Shown here: piece after piece, positions 50,141 to 51,085 of the stretch | Position numbering within the stretch: position 1 is the first letter of the stretch | Layout: each line of letters opens with the position of its first letter | NCBI RefSeq assembly: GCF_029201445.1 | Contig: NZ_CP102381.1 | Coordinates: forward strand, 682,001-746,000 | Origin: Thiomicrorhabdus lithotrophica | Lineage (GTDB): Bacteria; Pseudomonadota; Gammaproteobacteria; Thiomicrospirales; Thiomicrospiraceae | Length of the DNA: 64,000 bases | Reading direction: 5' to 3' | Notes under the pieces: generated by a model | Databases searched by the model: none | Told to the model about the DNA's origin: nothing | What the model saw: the letters and a program-made list of their open reading frames with translations, nothing else | Made by a program: the position numbers and the translations under genes

Positions 50141-50178
50141 AAAAGCCCGTCAACTCAAAAGAGTTGACGGGCTTTTTT
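50141..50178. terminator. Bidirectional intrinsic terminator
   Basis: A 12-bp perfect stem (GCCCGTCAACTC, AAAA loop) with flanking A4 and T6, between ybiT and the micropeptide array. Confidence 0.93.
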
Positions 50179-50269: not shown

Positions 50270-50404
50270 TTAAAATTCCATTGTTAAATGTGGTGACGTA
50301 GATGGAATACTGGCTCCAGCATCAGGGTTAGCTGAAAAATGGTGAGCCGAAGCGACTGATGTAATTCCAAATGTTAATAGTGCTGCTAATAGTACTTTTT
50401 TCAT
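50270..50404 (-). CDS. Secreted micropeptide, copy 1 of 3
   Basis: This 44-codon gene has a signal peptide of about 20 residues (MKKVLLAALLTFGITSVASA) and a mature part of about 24 residues with the pattern HH-x3-NPDAG-x2-IP-x-TSPHL-x-M-x-F. AAGGAA lies a few bases upstream of the ATG at 50404. It differs from copy 2 only at residue 5 (L/F). The mature N-terminal His-His plus a later His and Met could bind metal, which is inference. The family is not recognised. Confidence 0.8.
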   Translation of the reverse strand: MKKVLLAALLTFGITSVASAHHFSANPDAGASIPSTSPHLTMEF

Positions 50405-50473
50405 TATAATTTCCTTCAATATTTCTATCACTCTCATGTTCAGAGAGCTTTTTATTTAATCAACCAACTTTGA

Positions 50474-50608
50474 TTAAAATTCCATTGTTAAATGCGGTGA
50501 AGTAGATGGAATACTGGCTCCAGCATCAGGGTTAGCTGAAAAATGGTGAGCCGAAGCGACTGATGTAATTCCAAATGTTAATAATGCTGCTAAAAATACT
50601 TTTTTCAT
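50474..50608 (-). CDS. Secreted micropeptide, copy 2 of 3
   Basis: A 44-codon gene with mature peptide identical to copy 1 and a near-identical signal (MKKVFLAALLTFGITSVASA). The nucleotide similarity extends through the whole CDS, indicating a recent tandem duplication. AAGGAA precedes the ATG at 50608. Intergenic spacers of 69 and 48 bp suggest one minus-strand transcript with copies 1 and 3. Confidence 0.8.
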   Translation of the reverse strand: MKKVFLAALLTFGITSVASAHHFSANPDAGASIPSTSPHLTMEF

Positions 50609-50656
50609 AATATGTTCCTTTTTTATTAAGTCTAATTTTTGAATCTAACCAATGGT

Positions 50657-50791
50657 TTAAAAAACCATATCTAAATGCGGTGATGTATCTGGAATGTTAA
50701 CTCCTGCATCTGGATTCGTAGCCATATGATGTGCTGAGGCTGCTGTAGTGATTCCAAAAGTTAGTAGTGCTGCAAAAATAATCTTTTTCAT
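50657..50791 (-). CDS. Secreted micropeptide, copy 3 of 3
   Basis: This is the most upstream and most diverged copy, again 44 codons (signal MKKIIFAALLTFGITTAASA). The mature peptide keeps HH, NPDAG, IP, TSPHL and M-x-F while the residues between vary (MAT, VN, D, D, V). This pattern of conserved islands in a diverged copy argues for selection on protein sequence. AGGAAAG lies upstream of the ATG at 50791. The promoter must lie in the 294 bp shared with the divergent amidase gene. Confidence 0.8.
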   Translation of the reverse strand: MKKIIFAALLTFGITTAASAHHMATNPDAGVNIPDTSPHLDMVF

Positions 50792-51085
50792 ATTCTTTCC
50801 TGTTAATGGCTTTTTTAAGTTTCATTAAGTTCTTAATGGTTTCAGAAATGTGATTCCGCTCAGTATTCGTTATATCAACACGAGTTTTGCATCACGCTTA
50901 ATAAGATAGAACTTTTAACTTGTTTAACTAATTTAAGGATTTATTAAAATGTTATAAAGTTACATATCTTGATTTGCATATTAAATGTAAAATTATTACA
51001 TGTCAAATATATTTGTAAATCTTTTAAAGAGTGTATGGATTGTTTAAATGTAAAATACGGAGATAAACCTAAATAGGATGCATCC

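Follow-up and report, generated by a model that had tools for sequence, protein, structure and literature searches.

Apparently exported His-His micropeptides encoded by a tandem gene array in Thiomicrorhabdus lithotrophica form a family that spans two phyla and may bind metal

Three neighbouring genes of 44 codons each in Thiomicrorhabdus lithotrophica, easily overlooked at this size, encode micropeptides of a family that crosses phyla, falls into two classes and has its own promoter elements, all of which goes beyond the initial annotation of this DNA. The micropeptide ORFs of the window (the whole stretch of 64,000 nucleotides that was analysed) are real genes under selection and not chance reading frames, because dN/dS between the window copies is 0.07-0.11 and homologous copies are present in seven other genomes of the genus. 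Our sequence comparisons suggest that the peptides have a job outside the cell membrane, possibly metal binding. The function that we favour, with a probability of roughly 0.4, is that of an acidic exported chelator which would use its free N-terminal histidine and whose dose would be set by the tandem copies. This reading was chosen because a His-His pair stands at the likely new N-terminus and a third histidine is fixed in every member; if metal binding is true, few genetically encoded metal buffers would be smaller than these peptides.

Organization of the array

The genes lie on the minus strand as direct repeats spaced 204 and 183 nt apart and are, in the direction of transcription, copy 3 (50657..50791), copy 2 (50474..50608) and copy 1 (50270..50404), each encoding 44 aa. 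The ORF list and the coordinates bear out the original description of three minus-strand 44-codon genes with a ribosome-binding site, an export signal and a mature part of about 24 residues, the Sec signal being judged by eye from MKK, a hydrophobic stretch and A-x-A before the cut. All copies share the same precursor layout, a 20-residue export signal (by eye) followed by a 24-residue mature peptide, which reads HHFSANPDAGASIPSTSPHLTMEF in copies 1 and 2 alike and HHMATNPDAGVNIPDTSPHLDMVF in copy 3. As had also been noted, copies 1 and 2 are 43/44 identical, with one residue differing, and all three copies match the motif HH-x3-NPDAG-x2-IP-x-TSPHL-x-M-x-F. A ribosome-binding site of the AAGGA or AGGAAA type is present at each of the three copies; the ORF of copy 1 is listed as 55 codons from an upstream ATG, and its 44-codon start has the ribosome-binding site GAAGGAAAT. 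The array ends in a strong intrinsic terminator of 16 pairs (50141..50176, minus strand) before the convergent ABC-F gene, terminator-like sites numbering 4 in the window versus 0.6 in shuffles.

Distribution and relation to known families

A profile search found full-length copies in 8/32 Thiomicrorhabdus genomes, including Thiomicrorhabdus sp. ZW0627 (some of the other 24 are incomplete assemblies), and none in the remaining 30 of the 62 genomes searched across the order; partial matches in five rows of this search (G008, G012, G029, G062, G064) lie outside the full-length count. In samples of 369 Gammaproteobacteria and 398 Pseudomonadota, full-length copies occurred only in the window's genome, each sample holding partial matches in three further genomes. 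Among the matches listed in a scan of genome contigs was Sulfurovum sp. AR (Campylobacterota), which has six copies. Full-length copies were then counted in 12/397 genomes of a Campylobacterota class sample (18 matched, 6 of these partial) and in 23/228 genomes of the Campylobacterota family of G784 (25 matched, the partial G1320 and G1374 being left out of the study), two samples that overlap. The initial annotation had proposed such a tBLASTn/HMM-type search for relatives, and the family proved to be conserved outside this genome, reaching a second phylum. The third locus of the contig scan, in a Bacteroidaceae record (L057), aligned over residues 1-29 with the beginning of a 674-aa protein and was discarded. 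As to a mobile element, no relative was detected in viral contigs or phage records, and the plasmid search yielded three partial matches only (E 4).

None of the Pfam and NCBIfam matches (listed at E up to 10) reached a curated cut-off, the best match in PHROGs, which has no cut-offs, had an E of 0.035, and Rfam returned nothing for the array or its leader. The statement that no known family carries this motif therefore held at cut-off for the libraries searched. The weak matches mostly cover the signal; a few enter the mature part, none of them convincing (Cyt_c_ox_IV, residues 4-40, E 0.063; TDE1717, residues 1-33, E 0.17; a PagP phrog, residues 1-40, E 0.18; CDIF630_02480-like, residues 16-35, E 0.23; DUF6732, residues 2-39, E 0.27). 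The PA0050 family of NCBIfam (NF047882), a 45-position model, matches the micropeptides over its first 20-21 positions, but its best score is 15 bits against a cut-off of 45 and covers the signal peptide region only. A literature search, with most subscription journals outside its coverage, returned no small secreted peptides for Sulfurimonas and no small proteins for Thiomicrorhabdus.

Conservation of the mature peptide and its two classes

Thiomicrorhabdus supplied 21 and Campylobacterota 36 of the 57 distinct peptides on which conservation was assessed; duplicates, copies beside a gap of N in G025 and matches of the 228-genome family lacking a locus were excluded. The extraction regex demanded HH, AG and S-x-H, and for Thiomicrorhabdus also Ala before HH; the full-length profile matches (order and class, and family matches with a locus) all fitted it. 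In precursor numbering, Ala(-1), His21, His22, Ala29, Gly30, Ser37 and His39 are present in 57/57 peptides, an invariance that for HH, AG and S-x-H is partly by construction because the regex required them. Near-invariant positions are Leu40 (55 of 57), Ile33 and Phe44 (54 each) and Met42 (48). The mature part begins with His-His and has a third histidine later in 57/57; it is without Lys, Arg and Cys in 57/57 and acidic in all, with a net charge of -1 to -6. As it lacks Lys and Arg, trypsin would leave it in one piece, and searches of such data need the untrimmed 24-mer. Twelve of the 57 peptides extend past residue 44, and those read end in FF, FY, Y, L or M.

The family divides into class I (48 peptides; SPHL, with one SAHL and one SLHL form, and HLxM in 48/48) and class II (9 peptides; SGHL or SGHW, with no Met at the HLxM place), the latter present in both phyla. 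Across the phyla, identity has a mean of 69% for class I mature parts and of 22% for signals. The comparison of G013 with the Campylobacterota copy L105 is the extreme case, in which the mature parts are identical at 24/24 residues and share 61/72 nucleotides, with 14/24 third positions equal, and the signal DNA is 47% equal. The only Thiomicrorhabdus class II copy, the middle gene of G014, has a mature part with 69% mean identity to Campylobacterota class II versus 46% to class I of its own genus, and its signal peptide is of the own-genus type (61% vs 20%). We read this cross-phylum pattern as an ancient split in which strong selection held the mature peptide; alternatively, the mature part may have been transferred horizontally and joined to a local signal. 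Since the mature peptide is fixed across two phyla while the signal drifts, it should have a specific partner or ligand.

Gene neighbourhoods

An ABC-F ATPase gene is directly convergent with the array in 7/8 genomes, and in G014 the two are separated by a gene for a 915-aa membrane protein. On their other side, three of the eight arrays (G005, G017, G025) have a two-component system in divergent orientation, behind which come TolC, MFP and CzcA/CusA-type RND genes. This two-component/RND operon stands elsewhere in the genome in G000 (the window's genome) and G013. G018 and G020, two genomes in which the profile search detected no array, have it as well, and the regulator protein found matches in 24/35 genomes searched, with or without an array. 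In G018 a DUF6502 gene lies near the operon, with a sulfide dehydrogenase-like flavoprotein (by eye) between them (L171:3776-16394). The array-linked RND pump is closest to ZneA (678 bits) versus 574-581 bits for CusA and, in our reading of the alignment at what we take to be the positions of the three CusA methionines, these are not kept. On both grounds the claim that the array belongs to a Cus copper system was given up. The link to metal efflux is only suggestive because the pump operon is inconstant, nearest to ZneA and apparently without the CusA methionines.

The neighbours vary among the Campylobacterota loci, where no constant partner was recognised. At L100 a ZIP zinc transporter gene is transcribed divergently from the copy, at L108 TolC and CusB/HlyD-like efflux genes lie nearby, and at L102 a two-component system does, its regulator recognised by Pfam and its kinase by eye. 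Sulfurovum sp. AR has an ABC-F gene near its copies that is 42% identical to the ABC-F of the window. There, a peptide pair adjoins the ABC-F gene in the same orientation (L116:7854-9871), unlike the convergent Thiomicrorhabdus arrays.

Promoters and putative regulators

The predicted promoter of the array (TTGACA-17-TAATAT, 50978..51006, minus strand) matches the consensus at 10/12 positions. Promoter-like sites are no commoner in the window than in shuffles (5 vs 6.3) and the assignment therefore rests on conservation in relatives, a TTGACA element standing at a comparable place upstream of the other seven arrays. If the promoter is right, the array would be read as a single transcript whose leader spans about 180 nt (50792..50971, minus strand), in which a small stem GTGAT...ATCAC is tentatively predicted. 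By eye, the predicted leader fold shows a GTGA(T)/(A)TCAC stem in 6/8 genomes and lacks it in G013 and G025; it may be cis-regulatory or due to chance.

Two 17-bp palindromes are found near the promoter upstream of 8/8 arrays, with 0-3 mismatches at 14 scored positions; 0-6 of 200 shuffles per genome reach this score, for a pattern that was itself drawn from these sequences. In the window, the first operator-like palindrome occupies the spacer between -35 and -10 (50984..51002, no strand assigned, 2 mismatches/14) and the second lies 36 bp downstream (50948..50966, likewise, 3 mismatches/14). A less circular test, a scan with the pattern ATGKNAANNNTTNMCATTT, gave 13 distinct places in 8 genomes versus two control matches, both in G000. 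Three of the places are at arrays (G005, G017, G025), and the arrays of G000, G013, G014, G021 and G030 are not exactly matched. Of the places whose genes were read, five lie beside DUF6502 genes or gene sets (G000, G005, G017, G025, G030), two beside DUF2202 genes (G005, G013) and one beside a lipoprotein-like gene (G025); at the two remaining places (G014, G021) the site sequence, which is what was read there, equals that of G000. Pfam confirms the G005 protein as DUF6502 and the G013 protein as DUF2202, the other labels resting on sequence likeness; four DUF6502 proteins were aligned. In G000 the palindrome site is upstream of the gene for a Met-/Gln-rich, apparently exported 102-aa protein, the first of the DUF6502 set.

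A palindromic operator-like site is common to several little-studied genes of the genus, namely DUF6502 (followed by DUF5666 in G005), DUF2202, the Met/Gln-rich small exported-looking protein and the lipoprotein-like gene (L125:1480-1862; near 1501 in L136, L127 and L137 and in L122, L123 and L128). Allowing one mismatch, the promoter pattern had 35 matches in ten genomes versus 17 in the control, and every one of the six exact matches falls beside an array or a DUF6502 gene; of nine one-mismatch loci read, one (L161) precedes a small exported-looking gene and the rest are unconvincing. In Thiomicrorhabdus the two palindromes of the array are probably bound by a repressor, for which the shared sites make the DUF6502 protein a candidate. 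A sequence search of the PDB with DUF6502 gave no match, and the literature search gave no paper naming DUF6502 or DUF2202.

A different element, a CTAACA- or TTCACA-type direct repeat spaced at 11 bp, lies upstream of the Campylobacterota copies. With a consensus drawn by eye from the same promoters, some of them from close relatives, 30/37 promoters score at least 10/12 at spacing 11, versus 1-6 at the further spacings tried except for 15 at spacing 13, and 28/37 have p < 0.05 against shuffles. In 28 of these 30 promoters, which include both classes, the repeat stands 58-60 nt upstream of the start codon. Direct repeats at 11-bp spacing are the form of OmpR/PhoB-type sites, and the Campylobacterota copies are probably under a response regulator of this type acting on the repeat. 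The sequence TTCAC-N6-TTCAC, which we take to be the DccR repeat, is found upstream of two copies (L118 and L119); the micropeptide promoters resemble the DccRS regulon in their 11-bp-spaced direct repeat, a likeness tied to DccR through this presumed form, with the regulator putative. A review describes DccRS of Campylobacter jejuni as having an OmpR-type regulator, DccR, which late in growth enhances a small number of genes whose products are putative periplasmic and membrane proteins (PMC9449129). The conserved promoter elements offer a direct route to the inducing signal.

Proposed function and alternatives

In the exported chelator that we favour, a 24-residue peptide would be released by cleavage at a fixed, likely site directly before His-His. 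In the periplasm or outside the cell, His1 would bind a metal ion through its free amino group and its side chain, helped by His2, His19 and, in class I, Met22; copper would be the likeliest metal, with zinc as the other candidate. The peptide, which is acidic, is without Cys, Lys and Arg and has no regular secondary structure predicted, would therefore act as a small carrier or buffer without a fold; structure prediction gave the signal helix only. Its dose would be set by tandem copies kept alike through duplication or gene conversion, and the genes would be controlled by a dedicated regulator, a repressor in Thiomicrorhabdus and a response regulator in Campylobacterota. A free N-terminal histidine chelates copper strongly. 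The three histidines in 57/57 peptides and HLxM in 48/48 of class I are consistent with metal binding, and in favour of chelation are also the two-component/TolC/MFP/CzcA-type operon divergent from 3/8 arrays, the position of L100 beside a ZIP gene, and the similar palindrome upstream of the Met-rich, apparently exported 102-aa gene in the window's genome. Against it, metal binding gives no reason for the invariant Ala, Gly and Ser or for the near-invariant Ile, Leu and Phe, class II (9/57) is without the conserved Met, and the efflux neighbours are inconstant, with a pump that apparently lacks the CusA methionines.

A close counterpart in kind is SilE, which one study describes as an unfolded exported His/Met protein with HxxM motifs that can serve as a metal sponge (PMC5008109). 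The micropeptides share with SilE/PcoE the export, the lack of a fold in the free form (SilE) and the combination of His with HxxM, seen as HLxM in 48/48 of class I, but SilE has ten histidines over a far longer chain, whereas the micropeptide has 24 residues with three histidines, two of them at the mature N-terminus. The SilE/PcoE families are absent among the Pfam/NCBIfam matches listed at E up to 10. We tentatively suggest that the peptides could be metallopeptides of an undescribed class, made by ribosomes, 24 residues long, left unmodified and common to Thiomicrorhabdus and Campylobacterota, in which the free N-terminal His-His would be a minimal histidine-brace-like site, the mature part stays fixed while signals, copy number and regulators change, and two paralogous classes occur in both phyla.

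Two other functions are the main rivals, each less likely than the chelator. The mature 24-mer, or a fragment of it, could be an exported cell-cell signal, perceived through a two-component system or by uptake, whose dose the tandem copies raise. The peptide is short and exported, it is encoded in several copies with their own promoter elements, and two-component genes stand beside 3/8 arrays and near the L102 copy. However, signals normally diverge with their receptor, and an identical mature sequence in two phyla would be unusual; moreover, no constant receptor, protease or exporter was recognised among the Campylobacterota neighbours, and a signal gives the three invariant histidines no role. 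With about the same likelihood, the peptide might be an envelope accessory that binds one conserved partner (an oxidase, pump or protease), for example by way of its hydrophobic-x-Phe terminus, a possible counterpart of the C-terminal ends of outer-membrane proteins. Such a partner would account for (near-)invariant residues along the whole 24-mer, including Phe at position 44 in 54/57, and for the identity of the peptide across phyla. Yet no constant neighbour presents itself as the partner at the Campylobacterota loci, and the 12/57 peptides that run past residue 44 end, where read, in FF, FY, Y, L or M.

It is improbable that the genes encode RiPP precursors like the bufferins and HvfA, which are small Sec-exported RiPP metallophores with modified Cys, encoded beside modifying enzymes. 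The micropeptides resemble these in being small and Sec-exported with a proposed role in metal buffering, they combine an export signal with a highly conserved core, and one of six peptides matches the HvfA model, far below its cut-off (E 0.21, residues 1-30, mainly signal). They differ in that Cys occurs in 0/57 mature parts, that no modifying-enzyme family was recognised in the ten Pfam-scanned proteins near Campylobacterota copies, one of which is a methyltransferase (L103), and that the neighbours are inconstant. The bacteriocin-like role raised in the initial annotation is more improbable still. Short, exported, multi-copy peptides would fit it, but class II bacteriocins have a cationic mature peptide, whereas these are acidic in 57/57 (net charge -1 to -6) without any Lys or Arg; the sequence is also kept across phyla, and no immunity or export gene was recognised by eye in the listed neighbourhoods.

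Coding selection and copy evolution

The pairwise dN/dS values of the window copies are 0.114, 0.106 and 0.074, and the coding selection first claimed from the drift of copy 3 is thereby borne out at a dN/dS of about 0.1. Across 354 between-genome pairs, the signal part has a dN/dS of 0.09, and the mature part has a pN of 0.18 with saturation at synonymous sites (pS 0.75). Differences between genomes at codon positions 1, 2 and 3 number 3414, 1688 and 7723 and thus fall mostly on third positions. That the array is a repeat or regulatory RNA with chance ORFs, as units repeated almost perfectly (180 nt long in G005 and 200 nt in G017) might suggest, has next to no probability and is refuted by the codon pattern, namely the third-position bias and dN/dS of about 0.1, while the open frame is kept in two phyla and there is no Rfam match.

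Among 29 intact genes, mean nucleotide identity is 90% within genomes versus 73% between genomes. In G005, 5/6 copies encode one peptide in 180-nt units and, in G017, 5/7 copies do so in 200-nt units; identical peptides in near-perfect repeat units show concerted evolution by recent duplication or gene conversion. The array of G025 is broken by a run of N (L038:7146-7460) and has a copy number of at least two. In Sulfurovum sp. AR, three dispersed class II copies (L118:7210-7560, L119:7205-7550 and G427:C10:118311) score nearly alike, and L118 and L119 share near-identical DNA both upstream and downstream, as if a small cassette had been copied.
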